From contig JAFYAH010000055.1 in the NCBI GenBank assembly GCA_017540825.1, positions 1 to 55,241 on the forward strand: a stretch of DNA of 55,241 nt. Direction: 5' to 3'. The notes under the pieces were generated by a model. It searched no databases, was not told the DNA's origin, and was given only the letters and a program-made list of their open reading frames with translations. The translations under genes were made by a program, and so were the position numbers. Numbering within the stretch: the stretch's first letter is position 1; each line of letters opens with the position of its first letter. This DNA is from Candidatus Methanomethylophilaceae archaeon. GTDB lineage: Archaea; Thermoplasmatota; Thermoplasmata; Methanomassiliicoccales; Methanomethylophilaceae. Positions 11,715 to 52,953 of this stretch are shown here, in pieces.

Positions 11715-12371
11715 GTGATAGCCTTGTTCGCCGATGTCAACGGGGTCAGGATACATTACGAGACGTGCGGCGAGGGGCGCCCCCTTGTGCTGCTTCATGG
11801 AAACGGGGAGGACATGTCCATATTCGACGTCACCGTCGAGGAGCTGAAGGACTTCTTCATGGTCGTCACCGTGGATTCCCGCGGCCACGGCCAGAGCCAG
11901 GACGTGGGAGAGCTCCATTACGCGGACATCGCGGAAGACGTCCACTGCCTGATCGAGTTCCTCGGCCTGGAGCGCCCCGTGCTGTTCGGATACAGCGACG
12001 GGGGCATCGCCGGGCTGATCCTCGCCTCGGAGCATCCTGACGACCTCCTGAGGCTAGCCGTGGCCGGCGCCAACACGGACCCTTCGACCATAGAGTGGGC
12101 CGATAACGAGCTCTTATGCCTGGATCGTTCGGATCCGCGGATACGCATGATGCTCGAGGAGCCCCATCTGACGAAGTGGCAGCTCTCGGCCATACGCGTG
12201 CCATCATTGGTGATCGCCGGCGAGTTCGACATGATAAGGAGGTCGGACACGCGGTTCATAGCGGACAGCATTCCCCACGGCCACATGTACATCGTCCCTG
12301 ACGCTGACCATGGGAGCTACATATACAATTCCGAGATACTGCCGAGACTCCTGAAGGACTGGCTTCTCCGA
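11715..12371 (+). CDS. Alpha/beta hydrolase, ending at CGA
   Basis: The GTG at 11715 gives 218 residues to CGA 12369-12371; under the standard code the frame runs eight codons further to a TGA at 12393. The fold is a small alpha/beta hydrolase: oxyanion loop LLHGNGE (about 26-32), VTVDSRGHGQS, nucleophile elbow GYSDGG (serine), and a C-terminal HG (DADHGSY) histidine. The acid is probably the aspartate in IAGEFD. Ending at RLLKDWLL is natural for this fold, and the eight codons beyond the CGA add only RERPLRV. Located between two permeases; a hydrolase of a transported ester or amide would fit but is a guess. Confidence 0.82.
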
Positions 12372-20034: not shown

Positions 20035-21534
20035 TCGCAAGGCTATCTGCCTTCCGGTTTCTATCGACGACTCCGTCACCGTCCCGAGGCTCTTGATGTA
20101 TTCTCCGAGGACGACGCCGCTCTCCTCCACGAAGGTCGCGGCGCATCCGGCGAAGGCGGAGTTCCCGTTCCCTCCCATAACCACGTAGTCCGAGGTGCAT
20201 ACCGAGTAGGTCTTCCCCGCCTCCACTTTCTTGCCGTCGATCTCGATGGACGAAACCCTGGACCCAGTCTCGGCATCCGGGTCATACGTGACGGTCATAC
20301 CCGAAATCTGAAGGAACCCCCCTACATCCGATTCCAGATGGGTGTAGGATGACTCCATAGCCTCGTACAGGCGGCTCCCATCGGCCTCCAGGATCACCAG
20401 CTCGTCCAGGAACGGCAAAGCCTCGTACAGACTGCTTATGGTGATGTCGCCGACGCCGATGTCGGAGCGGATGCTGCCGGAGTTCAGCATCGCCACGTCG
20501 GATCCGCTGAACCATCTGGCTGCGTCAGCGATGAGGTCCCCAAGCATCGACTCTCTAGGCCCCAGGGCCTTATAGTTTCCTTCAAGGGGGATTCTGGTGG
20601 ATCCGATGCTCGTGGACAGGATCCTTCCGCATTCCTCGTTTACCTTGGCGACCGCCGCGTTCGTTTCCGGACAGGAAAGCGGCTCTCCCTCGTAAAGGTC
20701 CGCATCTATGGTCCCTCCATGGACGCGAACGACGCCGAACGAGGTGCAGTGGCCACCGGTGCTGGCGATCACCGTCCCGCTAGGCAAGAGGTCGATGCCC
20801 GGAGCCCTCCCTCCTTTCATGGCGGTGTGGCTGTGGCCGTCGATGAATATGTCGATGCCCGGGACCTTGGCGCAGATCTCGTCGGAGGTGACGGAAGCGG
20901 GCTCGACGCCTATGTGGCCTATCGCCACGACCATGTCCACTTCCATCGTGCGAAGCAGGGCGACCATGCGCTCGGAGGCTTCTATCGGATCTGTGATGGA
21001 GGTCCCTCCCATGCTCCCGGCTTTGACGCTGTATGCGGTGTCCGGGGTCAGCAGCCCGAATATGCCGAGGCGCACCCCGTTCTTTTCCAGCACGATCCAT
21101 TCCTTGAACACGCTGCTCCCGTCGGGATAGACCAGGTTCGAGCATATGATGGGGTAGTTCAGCGCGTCGGCCCTCTCCAGCAGCACAGGAAAGCCGAAGT
21201 CGAACTCGTGGTTTCCAGGTATGCCGACGTCGTATCCGATGCTGTTCATGACCTCGATCGAGGACAGGCCTGCCGTGACGGTCCCGCTAGGCCTCCCTTG
21301 GAGGAAGTCCCCAGCGTCCACCACGAAGACGGTCTCCCCCTGAGACTCGTACGAGTCCTTCAGGGCCCCGAGTGTGGACATCCCCAGGCCCTGGTCGTAG
21401 TAGCAGTGCGTGTCGTTGGAATGCAGGATGACGAAGGTGCTCCCGTCGCCCGGGACGTCGCGGACGGCGTACGAGAACGCCAGTATGAGCACTATCGCGA
21501 CAGCGGCTGCCGGCATGAGCCAGGTGGAACGCAT
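20035..21534 (-). CDS. Membrane-anchored 5'-nucleotidase/UshA-type metallophosphatase, ending at CGA
   Basis: From ATG 21534 (GGAGG ten bases upstream) the protein has 499 residues to CGA 20035-20037; the standard frame runs on to TGA 19924. A signal anchor (WLMPAAAVAIVLILAFSYAV) leads into the calcineurin-like phosphatase domain with metal ligands in HSNDTHCYYD, DAGDFLQG, GNHEFDFG, GHIG and DGHSHT. The C-terminal 5'-nucleotidase domain contains NSGSIRSDI and MGGNGNSAF. Ending at ETGRQIAL is normal for the family; the extra 37 codons beyond the CGA have poor codon use. The active site should face outside the cell, for nucleotide scavenging. Confidence 0.85.
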
Positions 21535-31602: not shown

Positions 31603-32931
31603 TCGGTTGAAGAGCATCATCATCCTGGAGAGGCCGATCTTCAGGCGGGCGGAGACCGTCCTTCTGGAATAGTCCTCAGGCAGCATCTCCTCAGAAGATC
31701 CGATCAGCCCCTCCAGGCGGGCGGAGACCTGCGCGGAGATCTCCTCCGACTCCACCAGTATGGACGTGTGGAAGTCGTGGAGCATGGCTCTTCCGTTGAA
31801 CGGGGCCATGCTTATCCCCGAAATCCGCCCGTCTATCGACAGGAGGCTGTCCTGGAACTCCTCTCTGGAGAAGAACACCCTCGCGCCGGAATCCAGCATG
31901 GACGAGGCGGCGGCGGCCGTGTTCCATTTCTGGTACCAGTGGCCCCCTCTCCCGGAGACGACCACTTTCACGTCTACCCCGGAGAGGGCGGACAGCTTCA
32001 GGAAGTTGTATACGTTCTCGTCCGGGACCAGGTACGGCTCGGAGAGGGCTATTGACTTCTCCGCCGCCTTCAGCATGGCGACGTATCCCATGAGCGCAGG
32101 GTTCCAGTCCCCGCCCGCGTCCGGCCCGGTCGAGACTATCTGGACCTTGGTGCTCCCAGCGGCGCCAGCGGTCTCTGACCTAGAAGGAGGCCTTCCGGTG
32201 GCGAACGACCAGTCCGCGAGGAAGCGGTCCTCCAGCCTCGATGCGGCCGGCCCTTCCAGGCGTATCACCGACTGCTCCCCGACGTATGCGGCGCGGCCGT
32301 CGACGATCGCCATGATCCTGCGGTTCTTGAAGCGGAACGACATCGTCACCAGCGGCATGAGCCTCCTGTGGAACGTCCTCACGCATACTCCTGCGGCCTT
32401 CATGCGCCTGATGACGCCGATGGATCCCGGGACGTCGCACCCCAGAAGGACCCTCACGTCAGCGCCTCCCTCCGCCTTGGAGCACAGGGCGTCCACGAAA
32501 CCGGGGGCCTCAGAATCCGTGGGGGGCCTGTATATGCTCACATGGACCGTTCTTTCGGCCGATACGATGTCGGCGACGGCGCTCTCCGACCCTTTCGCCA
32601 GGTCGTCGTAGAAGCGGGTGTAGTTGCCTTCGGTCGGCAGGTCCGCGCCTCTGATCCTGGGGTCGTCCAGCAGGCCCATCTCCCGGTCCCCTCCCAGCTT
32701 CCGGCCGAACACGCTGCCGGAGTACAGGGTGCACCCGTACAGCAGGTACAGGGCGAACCCCAGGAACGGGAGCACGATGGTCAGCGTCATCCAGAACGCG
32801 AACGACCTCGGGTCCATCCTCTCCTTGAACACCAGCAGGTAGACCGCTATAAGGTCCACCGCAACGACTAGCGGCAGGACCGTCCAGAAGGTCTCGACGA
32901 GCAGGAAGAACGGGCGGGTGATGTACGTCAT
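31603..32931 (-). CDS. Phospholipase D homologue with both HKD motifs lost, ending at CGA
   Basis: From ATG 32931, 442 residues to CGA 31603-31605, eight bases before the ATG of the next PLD gene. It has the same two N-terminal helices and PLD-like folds as its neighbours. Where active enzymes have H-x-K-x4-D, it has FKNRRIMAIVDG and FQDSLLSIDG, losing the histidine and lysine in at least the second motif and the histidine in the first. Its end (GLSRMMMLFN) lines up with the ends of the paralogues (AVSRLLCMLA, VSRLFGNLA). The standard frame runs on to 31243. Probably a non-catalytic partner or lipid-binding subunit. Confidence 0.8.
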
Positions 32932-40111: not shown

Positions 40112-41806
40112 ATGTTCATACCTGTCACCATGGACGAGGCTCGCCGCAGGGGCTGGAGGTCCCTGGACGTGATACTGGTGTCCGGCGACACCTATACGGA
40201 CAACTCCTACAACGGCACAGCCGTCATCGGGCATTGGCTCGTCGACCACGGGTTCAAGGTGGGGATGGTGGCACAGCCTCGCCTCGACGCCCCCGACGAC
40301 ATCCTCCGCCTGGGGGAGCCGGAGCTGTTCTGGTCCGTGTCCGCCGGCTGCGTCGACTCCATGGTGGCCAACTACACCTCCACCAACAGGCGCAGGAAGG
40401 ACGACGACTTCACACCGGGAGGCGCCAACGACCGCCGCCCGGACAGGGCCTGCATCGCGTACACGAATCTTATAAAGAGGTTCGCGAAGGGCAAGCCCAT
40501 CATCCTGGGAGGGATAGAGGCCAGCCTTCGCCGCATCGCGCACTACGACATGTGGTCCGACTCCGTCCGCAGGTCCGTCCTGCTGGACTCCAAGGCCGAC
40601 GGGATAGTCTACGGCATGGGGGAGCTGTCCAACCTGGAGATAGCGCAGAGGATGAGGGACGGGAAGGACTGGAGGGACGTCAGAGGGATATGTCACATGT
40701 CTTCCGAGGCGCCGCCGGGCTCTCTGGAGCTGCCCTCGTACGAGGAATGCGCCGCCGACCCCCAGGCGTTCGCCAGGATGTTCCGCATGTTCCGCGACAA
40801 CTGCGACCCGGTCACCGCCAAGCCGATGCACCAGGCCTACGGGAGCAGAGTACTGGTCCACAACCGCCCCCAGCGCTGCCTGACCCAGGAGGAGCTGGAC
40901 GCCGTCCACGAGTCGGACTACGAGAACGCCGTCCATCCATTCTACGCCTCGCAAGGGCACGTCAGGGCCATGGACACCGTGAGGAACTCCATCACCACCC
41001 ATCGCGGGTGCTACGGGGACTGCTCCTTCTGCGCCATCTCCGTCCACCAGGGCCGCACGGTGGTCTCCAGGTCGAAGGAGTCGATAATCCGCGAAGCCGA
41101 GAGGATCGCCTCCGCCAGAGGCTTCAACGGGATAATCCAGGACGTGGGAGGGCCGACGGCCAACATGTACGGGATAGAATGCCCCATGAAAGCCAGAGCG
41201 GGCGCCTGCAGGGACAGGAGGTGCCTGGGATCCAGGCCATGCCCCCGCCTGCCTATAGACCATTCCGAGCAGACGGAGCTCCTCAGGAGGATCTCGTCCA
41301 TACCGGGCGTGAGAAAGGCTTTCGTAGGGTCGGGGATACGCTACGACATGATCGTCGCGGACAAGGCCCACGGCCAGGAGTACCTGGACGAGCTCGTGTC
41401 CAGTCACGTCTCCGGGCAGATGAAGATAGCTCCCGAGCACGTCAGCGACCGGGTGCTCCGCCTCATGGGGAAGCCGTCGAGGGAGGTCCTGGAGGAGTTC
41501 AGGGAGATGTTCGAGGAGTCCAACGGCAGATGCGGGGCGAGGACCTTCCTCACCTATTATTTCATAGCCGCCCATCCAGGGTGCGGCGAGGACGACATGA
41601 GGGAGCTGGCCGACTACTGCCACAGGGTTCTCAGGACCAACCCGGAGCAGGTCCAGGTATTCACCCCGACGCCTTCCACCGTGGCGACGATGATGTACCA
41701 CTGCAGGAAGGACCTCAAGGGCAGGGACGTCCGCGCGGAGCACTCCATCCAGATGAGGCAGAGGCAGAAGGACATAGTGGTCCCCAGAGGGAAGAGGCGC
41801 GCACGA
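40112..41806 (+). CDS. YgiQ-family radical SAM protein, ending at CGA
   Basis: The ATG at 40112 gives 564 residues to CGA 41804-41806. The radical SAM cluster motif is HRGCYGDCSFCAISVHQG (C-x3-C-x2-C), within the YgiQ architecture (N-terminal B12-like domain with SVSAGCVDSMVANYT and ILGGIEASLRR). The substrate of YgiQ proteins is unknown. The CGA overlaps the next ATG as CGATG. Under the standard code the frame continues to TGA 41968 as VPPPLVRRRSPARTSSSS, clearly a shadow of the next gene. I read roughly sixty arginine codons before the end and none was CGA. Confidence 0.9.
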
Positions 41807-43496: not shown

Positions 43497-44150
43497 ATGG
43501 CTTTCGATAGACAACCCGGCGACAACCACGAAGATGCCGAGACCCTCTACCAGCAGGGGCTGGCCTTCCTCTACGGCACGGACGTCCCCAAGGACTACGC
43601 CAAGGCGGCGGAATGCTTCAAGAGCTCCTGCAAGAAGGGCCACATGCCCGCCCGCAGGGAGCTGGGAATCATGTACGCGTCCGGACAGGGAGTGGAGAAG
43701 GATCTGGAGAGGGCCGTCCTCTACCTCGGGCAGGCCGCCGACTCCCTGGACCCCAGCGCGCTCTACCACCTGGGCCTGATGTACGAGGTCGGGTCGGGGG
43801 TCGAGAAGGACATGCAGAAGGCCGTGAGGATGCTCGCGTACGCCGCTGAGATGGGCTTTCCGGGCGCCGATTCCGATGCGGAGCGCGTAGACGCGATTCT
43901 CACCGAGCAGAGGAACAGGAACCTCCGCGCCAGGCCGCTGCTGAAGCTCCAGATTTCTGACGTGGACGTCGAGGCCGCCTGCTGCAAGCCGATGCTGGAC
44001 GCCCTCCTGGCGCAGGACATCGTGTTCATCGACACGGCCAGCGGCCCTGCCCTCCTGGGAGAGGACCTAGACGGCATGGACGCCGTCCTCAGCCGCTGCC
44101 CCTACTGCGGCGCTCCGGTGCAGGTCGTCCCTCGCGACAAGAAGTATCGA
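43497..44150 (+). CDS. Sel1-repeat protein 3 with C-terminal CPYCG motif; end uncertain
   Basis: From ATG 43497, 217 residues to CGA 44148-44150. About three Sel1 repeats (GHMPARRELGIMYASGQGVE) precede a region ending in CPYCGAPVQVVPRDKKY. Beyond the CGA the frame stays open to TGA 44267 with poor codons. However, a different frame from about 44146 (SIDLDIRNSCRTFPFGAAPK, to TAA near 44252) has good third-position GC, so a one-base frameshift is an alternative explanation for this end. An earlier ATG at 43461 would include an in-frame CGA and poor codons, so I do not prefer it. Confidence 0.65.
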
Positions 44151-46040: not shown

Positions 46041-48131
46041 TCGATCCGAATCCGGCCTCTCCCACGGCTCCGCCTCCTCGGCGATCCTGCCTACAAGCTC
46101 GTCGCCTCTGGACGTCCAGAAGCTCCTGTCGCAAACCAGGACCAGCCTCCTCCTCGCTCTCGAGACGGCGGTGTTGATTATCTTCAGCCCCATCCTCTCT
46201 GAGGAGCTCGTGAACCTGAAGGGGACGTCCCTCGACATGACCCCGTTGTCGGCGACGCTGAGCACCACCAGGTCCCATTCCCTGCCCTGGGAGGCATGGA
46301 CGGTCATCACGCAGTCCCTGTACCTTCCCACGGAGCGCCTGAGCAGCCTCGCCTGGTCGGCGTACGGGGTCAGTATCGCGATCGAGGACGGCTCCGGGCG
46401 CTCCGAATCCAGGAAGGCGACGACCGCGTCCTTCTCCGCGGCGTTCTCCCTCTCCTTCCTCTCCGTGCAGACCGCGTCTATGCACGAGATTCTAATGTCC
46501 CCTTCCCCCCGCCCGGTCATCCCGTTGCGGTAGACGAACCTTTCCAGGATCGCAGCCAGATTCTGGCCGAACCTGTGGGATTCGGTCAGGTCCGCTCTCG
46601 CTGTGAGGACGAATTCGGGTCCTCTGCCGGAGACGTAGTCGCGCTCCAGGGCGTCCCTTCCGGCGTCGACGAGGGTCTCGCAGTGGAGGGCGCTCATGTC
46701 CCAGAGGAACGCGTTGCGCATCCCTGAGCCTCCTCTCGCCCAGCGCTCCAGCAGCTCCCCGTCCAGCTCGCAGACCGGAGGGAGCTGCATGTGGTCCCCC
46801 AGGAATGCTATCGGGACGCCGTTCGAGAACAGCGTTATGGCGTGCATCAGGCCGCAGTATCCCGCCTCGTCGAGGAATATGCGGTCCGCGTCCAGCTCCA
46901 TGCGCCCGTCGTCGGCGGAGCCTCTGGGCCTGAAGCGCGAAATGAACTGCAGGGGCGTGCCGGCTATCACGGAGGCGTTCCTGACGCGCCTGCTGGTGCA
47001 TCTGGCAGATATGCTCTCCAGCTCGTCCTCGAGAGACGATATCATCAGCGCCACGTCGGCGTCGGACATGCTTCTGTACTCCTCTATGTCCAGCGCCGGG
47101 CGGTCCCTGTCGTAGAGGGCGGACTTCGCTTCGGCCAGCACCTCCCTCAGGTCCCTTCCGGCGCTGCAGTCGATGCGCCTGGTCCGGGAGCAGAGCGTCA
47201 GTATGGGCGCCATCTCCCTCCCCATCTCCGGCGCCAGGGAGATGGTCGCGGTCCCGTCCATCACGTCCAAGCGCTCCGAGAGGTCCTCTATCCTCCCCCT
47301 CATCCTCTCGCACGTCCTCTCGAACAGCACCTCCTCCAGGTTCCCGATGCTCTTCCTCAGGCGGTCCGCCCTCTTCTGCGCCTGGGAGTCCTCGCACATG
47401 TCTGGATGCTCCAGAAGGAACGACTTAGTCGGGATCCCGAGCCGCAGTATGCCGTTCCCGAGCTTGCTCGCGTCGAACGCCTTCAGGATCCCGCGCAGGA
47501 CCTGCTCCACGGAGTTGTTGGTCGGCGCGAACACAGCCACCTTCATCCCTTCGCGGAGGCAGGTCCGGATGCACGTCGCCAGGACGAACTGCGTCTTCCC
47601 CGTCCCAGGTGCCCCCCAAACGTACGAAAGGGGGCTGGTCAGTATGCACCGCACCGCATTCCGCTGCTGCTCCGTGGGCTCCGACCCCTCCGGGAATTCG
47701 GGCTCCCCCGCCGAAGGAGGGTCGCAGGGGATCCCGATGGAGCCCGAGTGCCTTTCCAGGAACGAAGCCACCGCTTTGACGAGGAACTTCATGTCGGACA
47801 GCACCCTCACGCGAGGATGGGCTATCGACATGGCTGACAGCACGCCCGGCCCGGGCCTGGCGACGATGGTGCGGGACACCTCGTCGTAGCGGGTGAACCC
47901 GGCGTCCTCCCCGGAGAGAAGGTCCGAGTCCACCTGGAGCATCAGGGAGCCGGTGTCCTGGATCAGCGACTGGAGGTGCAGGACGACGTAACCGTCCCTG
48001 ACGTCGTACGACGACACCTCGGTGACGCTGACCCCCATCGGCGGGTCGGTGGCGTACTGCATGTCCTCGATGTAGGAGCAGACGCGCGACGCCGATTCCT
48101 TCAGGATGTCTGGCAGTGTCTCGGGGTCCAT
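46041..48131 (-). CDS. Superfamily 1 (UPF1/DNA2-like) helicase, ending at CGA
   Basis: From ATG 48131, 696 residues to CGA 46041-46043; the standard frame adds twelve AT-rich codons to TGA 46005 and overlaps the next gene. Motifs: VWGAPGTGKTQFV (I), IFLDEAGYC (II), AFLGDHMQLPPV (III), VMTVHASQGREWDLVVLSV (V), NTAVSRARRRLVLV (VI). The N-terminal 150 residues are a beta-rich extension. Predicted DNA or RNA helicase. Confidence 0.87.
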
Positions 48132-48189
48132 GCCCGGGGAGCCGGGGAGGAGGTAAAGCGTTTTTCAGGAGAGCTTTAAGGTTGTTAGC

Positions 48190-48636: not shown

Positions 48637-48743
48637 CTTGTATTTTTGTTTAAGCCATAGTCACATCGTTGCGGTTTACAAAGGCAATACCCCGGTCGAC
48701 CTCGTGGAATCTATATAAATACGGCCCAGCGCATCGCCGTCTC

Positions 48744-49619
48744 ATGTTCGCAGAGGCTTGCCGTACAGCTAAAGGCTTCACCCGTCCGGTGGCCACCTCC
48801 ATCCGCTACCAGGACGGGACGGTCACCACCGCTCTCAACTCGTTCATAATAGTCAACCGCGACGGATGGGCCCTGACCGCCGGCCACACGTTCGACACCC
48901 TGGTCAAGCATGAGAACGACCGCAAGAAGATGGAGGAGATCTCTCGCATGTCCGCGCCCGGGCAGCCCGGAGCTCCTTCCAGCCCTGTGAAGATGGATCC
49001 CAAGTTCATCCTCAACCATTCGTTCTGGTGGGGGTGGGACGGCGTCCTGATAAGCGAGGTGACGGTGGACAGGAAGATCGACATAGCCCTGGTCAAGCTG
49101 GTGAACTTCAAGCCCGAGATGGTCTCCAACTACCCCGTGTTCGCCAGTCCCGACAGCATATCCCTGGGAAAGAGCGTCTGCAGGCTCGGGCATCCCTTCG
49201 TGGACCCTCCCACGGAATTCGACCCGGTACATAACGCGTTCCGCATACCCAAGATAGACTCGGATGCCGCGATGTTCGTGAACGACGGCGTGGTGTCCAA
49301 GATAGTGACCATAAAGAAAGCGGGGAACAGCCTCATCGACGCTGTATACATGGACACGTCCACCCCCGGCTACAGGGGCCAGGCGGGCGGCCCTATCGTC
49401 GACGTCAAGGGAAGGGTCTGCGGCATGCAGATCAACACCCTGGCACTGCCCTTCGGCTTCCATTCGGCTTCGCCCGAAGGAGAGAGGAACCCTGTGGAGG
49501 ACCAGTACTGCTGCGTGGGGCGCGGCGTTCACGTGAAGACCATCAGGGAGTTCCTCGACTCGAAGAACATAAGGTACGGCTTCGAGGACTCCGACGAGGA
49601 GTACACCATACTGGAGCGA
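48744..49619 (+). CDS. Trypsin-like protease homologue with Ala in place of the catalytic Ser, ending at CGA
   Basis: From ATG 48744, 291 residues to CGA 49617-49619; the standard frame adds GGRPMR to TAA 49640. The start is leaderless, about 30 bases after TATATAAA (48712-48719). The fold is chymotrypsin-like: H48 in LTAGHTFD and D113 in KIDIALVK are in place, but the nucleophile motif G-x-S-G-G reads GQAGGP, giving A214. It should therefore not cleave peptides, yet may bind them. It lacks a signal peptide, so is cytoplasmic. The convergent neighbour is an intact homologue. Confidence 0.85.
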
Positions 49620-49624
49620 GGCGG

Positions 49625-50290
49625 TCGACCTATGCGGTAAGGGATGCCGGCCGCGTCCATGAGCCTCCTCATGCTGTCCACGTGGACGGCGATGCCCTCG
49701 CAGGAGGTCATGGTCGCAGCGGCTCCGTCGTCATTGATGTAGCGGTATCCGGTGTCCGTGAGGCGGGTGGCCACCTGCATGCCGAATATGACCCCGTCCC
49801 TGTCGAAGACGGCCCCTCCCGACTGGCCGCTTATGCCAGGCGTGGACGTCACGAACATCCTTGTGCCGGACTCGGAGAACTCCTGCGAGACGATCCCGCA
49901 GTTCCCGAAGGCGCCTGCTGAAGCCGCGTCGTCCCCCCTGTCCATGTTGTATCCTATGCGACCGACGGTCATCCCCATCAGGGCCTTTCCGGAGTTGCTG
50001 AAGGCCGGGTAATCCGTCACCCAGTCCCCGTCGAACGGCGTCAGCCTGCCCACGGCGATGTCGGACTCGGAGTCGAAGAGGACGTCGTCGACGGACACCC
50101 CTTCCCATCCCCACACGAAGCTCCCAGAACCGTCCCTCTCGTCTTCAAGGATGTGCCTGGCGGTGATTATCCACCCGGACCTGTTGACGACGATGAACGA
50201 TCCGCATCTGGGCTTGCTGGCGCTGCCAGGGTCCGTCATGAGGACCGGACGGGTGAAATCCCTCGCGCAGCCGAAGGCGGCCTCGAACAT
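49625..50290 (-). CDS. Trypsin-like serine protease with intact triad, ending at CGA
   Basis: From ATG 50290, 221 residues to CGA 49625-49627; the standard frame continues to TGA 49529, overlapping the convergent gene by 112 bases. A TATA element (TATATA, 50310-50319) is about 25 bases upstream. H46 (ITARHILE), D77 (ESDIAVGR) and S157 (ISGQSGGAV) complete the catalytic triad. N-termini of this protein (MFEAAFGCARDFTRPV) and its partner (MFAEACRTAKGFTRPV) are alike, so they are paralogues. No signal peptide. Confidence 0.85.
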
Positions 50291-50327
50291 GGGGACGGAA
50301 TCGGAATTGGCTATATATTTTTGACAT

Positions 50328-52062: not shown

Positions 52063-52953
52063 TCGGGAGGGAGGGTGGCCGAAAGTGTCGGCAGCCATGG
52101 CGAGGCAGCCCTTGAGCGCCTGCTCCCCGCCCAGGGACGAGGGAACGATGTAGGTGTCGAGGTCGGAGCTCTCCTGGAAAACATAGTGTCCCCCGAGCTG
52201 CTCCCGGACGCCTTCGCGGATCATCGGGAACAGCGACATCCTCTCCATGACGCCGCCGCCCATGACGACTACGTTCGGGGAGACTATCTGCATGCAGTTC
52301 CGCACCAGCTGCGCCAGGTAGTAGGCTTCGATCTCCCAGACCGGGTCGTCGTCGGGGATGCTCTCGCCCGCTATGGAGCGCCTCTTGCCGACGGCGGGGC
52401 CGCTCGCCATGCCCTCGGCGCAGTCCGGATGGAACCTGCAGACGCTGGCCATGCGGTCGTCAGGATGCCTCGTCACCCTGGTATGCCCGCCTTCCGGGTG
52501 CAGCAGCCCGTGCAGGGGCTTCCCGTCGATGACGATCCCTATCCCTATCCCGGTCCCGACGGTGATGTATAAGACGTTCTGCTTGCCTTTCCCGGCGCCG
52601 AAGCGGGCCTCCCCCATGCATGCAACGTTGACGTCGCTGTCGATGACGGCGGGGACCCCGAGGGACTCTTCCAGGGTCTTGCCGAGAGGGTATTGGGACC
52701 AGGCTTCGCGAGGGCAGGCCAGGATCGTCCCGTAGCTGGGACCGGGCCTCAGGTCGATAGGGCCGAACGAGCCGGCGCATAGAGAAGCTATGCCTCTTCC
52801 TTCGAAGAACTCCAGGATCTTCGGAACGGAATCGGCGGGAGGGAGGGTGGGGAACCGCACCTTCTCGAGGACGGTCCCGTCCTTCCTTCCCAGAGCGCAG
52901 ATTATCTTGGTGCCGCCTATCTCGACGGCTCCGTAGATCTTTCCGTCATCCAT
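52063..52953 (-). CDS. ROK-family sugar kinase (fructokinase-like), ending at CGA
   Basis: From ATG 52953, 296 residues to CGA 52063-52065; the standard frame adds one Phe codon and TAA. The phosphate loop is AVEIGGTKIICAL, and the zinc motif GGHTRVTRHPDD...CRFHPDCAEGMASGP places it with fructokinases and mannokinases of the GmuE/ScrK branch. Catalytic aspartate is in VIDSDVNVA. The ATG overlaps the stop of the upstream gene (ATGGATGA). Cytoplasmic hexose kinase. Confidence 0.87.

Follow-up and report, generated by a model that had tools for sequence, protein, structure and literature searches.

Comparative genomics shows CGA, ordinarily an arginine codon, behaving as a genuine stop of translation in the genus of Candidatus Methanomethylophilaceae archaeon (clade A) and, separately, in a second group formed by Methanomethylophilus and its relatives (clade B). 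The window analysed here is a stretch of 55,241 nucleotides (GenBank assembly GCA_017540825.1, contig JAFYAH010000055.1) from a rumen/gut archaeon, and is a single contig within a genome of 2.37 Mb (G000); genome counts given below cover 957 kb, ~40% of G000. Two convergent protease genes lie tail to tail in this window, and a sequence-only reading had proposed that both of them end at facing CGA codons.

Both genes encode Trypsin_2 proteases (PF13365; E 5.7e-11 for the + gene and 7.2e-11 for the - gene), with scores of 43.8 and 43.4 bits against a curated Pfam cut-off of 27.6. Under translation table 11 the + open reading frame (ORF) runs to a TAA at 49638-49640 and the - ORF to 49529, so that the two overlap tail to tail by 112 bases. 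With CGA read as the end, the locus is arranged as follows.

48744..49616, + strand: trypsin-like protease gene of 291 codons, ending at CGA (PF13365; eight more genomes of the genus have orthologues)
49617..49619, + strand: predicted CGA stop of this gene; the same column holds TGA in G001, G004, G006, G007, G009 and G010, and TAA in G005
49620..49624, no strand: spacer of five bases separating the two CGA stops (sequence reading)
49625..49627, - strand: predicted CGA stop of the - protease gene; the same column holds TGA in G001, and the G006 homologue ends at CGA too
49626..49640, + strand: region beyond the + gene, with a second in-frame CGA (49626-49628) and the first canonical stop, TAA (49638-49640) (sequence reading)
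49628..50290, - strand: paralogous trypsin-like protease gene of 221 codons from the ATG at 50290-50288 (PF13365; convergent partner kept in G001 and G006)

The ends of the orthologues fall at these codons. The window's + protease ends in EEYTILE-CGA, and within the genus the CGA column is TGA in six of seven orthologues (QEFRIVE, EEYKIVG, EEYRIDY, PEFRIVD, SGFRIIE and SGFRIVG) and TAA in the remaining one (TGYRIVG). The - protease ends in AAGIPYRIG-CGA, against AAGVSYRLV-TGA in G001, the nearest relative; in G006 its homologue likewise meets a CGA, which lies directly against the TGA that ends the + gene's orthologue. The sequence-only reading would have been contradicted by homologues conserving residues past the CGA codons. 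All 7 of the + gene orthologues stop there instead, as does G001 at the - gene column, and since the orthologues stop at the CGA columns this comparison favours CGA as the end. The positions of the two CGAs, the overlap of 112 bases, the gap of five and the location of a palindrome had been given correctly to the base, and the orthologue termini, the genome-wide pattern and the two clades all agree with the reading of CGA as the end of both proteases. The removal of the overlap on both strands had also been offered as a strong independent test; by itself it is suggestive, and the orthologue termini decide.

The same pattern was found across the genome. Among codons with coding context on both sides we counted 12 CGA, compared to 482 CGG, 3755 CGC, 6773 AGG and 35 TGA (a true stop). 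Inspection of the 12 internal-type CGA sites placed most of them at gene starts or ends, with the gene of the release factor aRF1 as the only clear internal case. As a fourth stop, CGA closes 27% of the gene ends matched to an orthologue (76 of 286). For 56 of the 76 an orthologue ends in a canonical stop, and for 28 this stop is in exactly the same column. The interchange between G000 and G001 goes in both directions (CGA/TGA 20, TGA/CGA 15). Seven codons were compared as putative stops against G007, counting matched ends and homologues that continue: CGA gave 26 matched and 3 continuing, GGA 5 and 207, AGA 13 and 84, TTA 0 and 5, TCA 2 and 51, CAA 3 and 24, and TGT 1 and 14. In other genomes of the clade CGA accounts for 46/200 matched ends (G001), 18/77 (G006) and 7/189 (G007). 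Some three quarters of the CGA stops have G or T as the next base, and 8% have A, in an exploratory, post hoc comparison.

We compared 80 named aRF1 neighbourhoods for the distribution of CGA use. Pooling the named loci, clade A had 43 CGA ends and 3 interior CGAs, while clade B (Methanomethylophilus 1R26, UBA78, COG_1 and others) had 13 CGA ends, 12 of them sharing their exact column with TGA or TAA, and lacked interior CGAs. The other Methanomassiliicoccales relatives had 205 interior CGAs, indicating sense use in the outgroups. In the aRF1 tree clades A and B are well supported (99 and 100), with CGA-as-sense lineages placed between them. This topology would require a minimum of two changes to a CGA stop, with the tree that joins the two clades not formally rejected (approximately unbiased [AU] test, p = 0.054). 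UBA328 (L226), sister of clade B, has neither interior CGAs nor CGA ends and a single aRF1 CGA at aligned codon 0, possibly an intermediate state. Among Candidatus Methanomethylophilaceae metagenome-assembled genomes (MAGs), the aRF1 of Thermoplasmata MAG SIG7 is 96% identical to that of G000.

The aRF1 gene itself carries CGA in a conserved manner. Every clade A genome covering the site has a single CGA in the gene, which is aligned codon 67 and is flanked as NCT CGA CTN AAR; the clade B gene also has a single CGA, which is codon 14 and is flanked as TAY CGA GGN ARR GGC ACY (11/11 genomes), and synonymous-site conservation in the gene peaks at this context. The frame stays in phase past the CGA, and most relatives and outgroups have Arg aligned at these sites. 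In relatives that use CGA as sense, the CGAs of aRF1 are scattered. We infer that the lone conserved in-frame CGA is the trace expected from autoregulation of aRF1, and that aRF1 itself would read CGA. An additional release-factor paralogue was considered, and none was found: the two eRF1_1 matches in G000 are aRF1 and a Pelota-like protein. No bacterial-type RF1 domain was found in its 2.37 Mb.

Matched ends with CGA in both orthologues and similar sequence downstream were inspected, and only aRF1 and a NifH-NifD-like frame showed an in-phase homologous continuation; the remaining ones, considered as readthrough cases, were put down on visual inspection to overlapping genes in other frames. 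The NifH-NifD-like frame has one CGA, at codon 276-278, conserved in 10/10 of the clade A genomes that yielded the full frame (G000 L187:4143-4145; also L315-L324 and L334). It sits in the linker between a NifH domain (residues 7-274 of the G000 protein, by Pfam) and a nitrogenase component 1 (NifD-like) domain (310-670), and the linker residues around it are variable. A paralogue in G007 and the same-order genome G020 have NifH and NifD fused without a CGA at the junction. The base after the junction CGA is A in 6/11, and the comparison with CGA stops is again exploratory and post hoc. This CGA is likely a programmed readthrough site between the two domains, and both read-through genes, aRF1 and NifH-NifD-like, would be regulated, each through its own CGA. 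The G000 genome has seven NifH/NifD-like matches (C23, C36, C58, C7, C17, C18 and C32), an unusual expansion for one genome.

Several conserved frames also contain an in-frame TAG: the NifH-NifD paralogues of G001, G007, G009 and G011, and the second protease of G006 (L003). PylS occurs in G000 and also in several relatives, so TAG may encode pyrrolysine in these genomes.

Loss of tRNA-Arg(UCG), whose anticodon matches CGA, had been anticipated, but the gene is retained. The tRNA has lost the 31:39 pair in nine clade A genomes, and the copies of G003, G007, G009 and G012 carry C33 where U33 is nearly universal; these C33 copies (L307-L310) are 92-99% identical to the G003 copy. Outgroups have a normal stem and U33. 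The clade A tRNA would thus appear to be a weak competitor of aRF1. tRNA-Arg(GCG) seemed absent from G000, but the gene was found in relatives (G007, G009 and others), and therefore a dedicated tRNA serves CGC and CGU in those genomes.

We consider it very probable that CGA is a stop in both clades, that aRF1 most likely reads it leakily in competition with tRNA-Arg(UCG), and that two genes exploit this competition. A single omnipotent aRF1 would accept C besides U at the first codon position, making CGA a leaky form of UGA, and in the window's clade the structurally weakened tRNA would normally lose to it. An excess of aRF1 would then end its own translation early at the in-frame CGA, while under scarcity the tRNA would insert Arg. 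At the CGA of the NifH-NifD-like frame, stopping would give a NifH-like protein and readthrough the fusion. A wider proposal, which we favour somewhat, is that archaeal genomes gained a fourth stop codon on two separate occasions, and that each time one CGA, differently placed in the two clades, was left in the aRF1 gene as a level sensor; that the crippled tRNA-Arg(UCG) of the window's clade is kept only for the CGAs of aRF1 and NifH|NifD; and that UAG is probably pyrrolysine, so that sense would turn to stop while stop turns to sense in the same cells.

Several points weigh against leaky termination by aRF1. The case for termination at CGA is one of comparative genomics; the list of true internal CGAs is drawn from the sample of ~40% of G000, and the genomes were mostly assembled from metagenomes, although that of G007 forms one contig. 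A diagnostic aRF1 residue, unique to both CGA-stop clades, was sought and none was found, and the tRNA-Arg(UCG) of clade B has an intact anticodon stem and U33. C-to-U editing of the mRNA, converting CGA into UGA before ordinary termination by aRF1, would account equally for the CGA/TGA interchange and the lack of internal CGA, with unedited transcripts giving readthrough. However, the sequence upstream of CGA stops showed no motif of the kind that an editing enzyme should require, and an unknown genome-wide editor would have to operate in two clades; we therefore regard editing as quite improbable. It is also unlikely that CGA is an unassigned codon at which ribosomes stall for want of a functional tRNA-Arg(UCG), to be rescued by Pelota/ABCE1 instead of aRF1. 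The damaged tRNA of clade A and the Pelota-type second eRF1_1 protein of G000 would fit, but 27% of matched gene ends would then rely on stall rescue, the clade B tRNA appears intact, and the CGA kept in the release-factor gene of both clades points to aRF1.

That CGA is still arginine and merely very rare, its ends being coincidental C-terminal extensions or overlaps, is a reading to which we give very little credence. CGA is rare across much of the family, chance places many CGAs near 3' ends, and tRNA-Arg(UCG) is still there; but rarity does not explain the exact CGA/TGA interchange at orthologous stops, and in the control comparison TTA, rarer than CGA in the aligned frames, yielded continuing homologues and no matched end. 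Avoidance of a rare codon alone is thus ruled out by the orthologue termini and the control codons. We count as refuted the explanation that the facing CGAs reflect pseudogene decay or an assembly error confined to the protease locus: one protease is a divergent paralogue, but frames and orthologous ends are conserved in several independent genomes and the pattern is genome-wide.

In the rest of the window the convincing genes have no internal CGA, and several end at this codon.

12369..12371, + strand: predicted CGA stop, gene tail ...PRLLKDWLL; TGA in the same column in G001 (tail ...PRLLKDWLI)
20035..20037, - strand: predicted CGA stop; TGA in the same column in G007
31603..31605, - strand: predicted CGA stop, gene tail ...LSRMMMLFN; in this column G001 has CGA in its orthologue and TGA in a paralogue
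41804..41806, + strand: predicted CGA stop; TGA one codon off in G006
44148..44150, + strand: predicted CGA stop, gene tail ...VQVVPRDKKY; G001 and G006 both have CGA in this column
46041..46043, - strand: predicted CGA stop of the helicase-like gene at 46044-48164 (no internal CGA in 72 Arg codons); TGA in the same column in G001
52063..52065, - strand: predicted CGA stop; TAA two codons off in G001

At the protease locus the GGTCGACC palindrome is present at 49623-49630; we found no sign of a role for it as a functional element. TATA-like elements lie ~25 bases upstream of both protease start codons (48714-48724 and ~50311-50319), a distance that suggests leaderless archaeal transcripts for both genes.

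If CGA is a stop, gene ends, overlaps and fusions are misannotated in these archaea, a matter of 27% of the orthologue-matched ends in the G000 sample, and many protein ends in databases are probably wrong. We found no account of a CGA-as-stop code, or of any sense-to-stop change in a cellular genome, in the literature searched (few subscription journals and bioRxiv preprints). The published sense-to-stop changes that we found concern organelles only, and a gut methanogen makes the gain of a stop codon by a factor of the aRF1/eRF1 family directly testable, as well as whether a release factor regulates itself via the recoded codon.

The organelle cases include AGA/AGG in vertebrate mitochondria, UCA and UUR in green algal mitochondria and UUA/UCA in peDinoflagellate plastids (PMC6821328, PMC12574857), the plastid case having been termed in 2025 the first sense-to-stop change outside mitochondria (PMC12574857). 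There too a sense codon vanishes from gene interiors and turns up at homologous 3' ends, and the change is attributed to widened release-factor recognition, as proposed here for CGA. Unlike those cases, the present one would involve a whole archaeal genome, an aRF1/eRF1-type factor and the codon CGA, with the matching tRNA retained and two genes read through. Codetta has revealed bacterial codes in which CGA/CGG changed from arginine to tryptophan and CGG to glutamine; since it infers amino acid meanings, a stop codon would go unassigned (PMC8629427). Those codes likewise involve rare arginine CGN codons that were lost and re-assigned, and tRNA(UCG), but they are sense-to-sense changes in low-GC bacteria, whereas here CGA appears to have become a stop in archaea of 53-60% GC.

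For the two genes that are read through, the closest parallels are recoding sites. A single in-frame stop, which aRF1 itself would recognise, is retained in the aRF1 gene, much as bacterial prfB (RF2) has one in-frame UGA recognised by RF2 and bypassed by a +1 frameshift. The aRF1 gene would work alike but is not a prfB-type member, because the frame is unchanged past the CGA, with no +1 frameshift; reading would continue as Arg, and aRF1 is unrelated to RF2. The NifH-NifD-like frame resembles readthrough of the gag-pol type in having a leaky stop between two domains, and differs from it in that the leaky stop would be CGA and the products are predicted from sequence.
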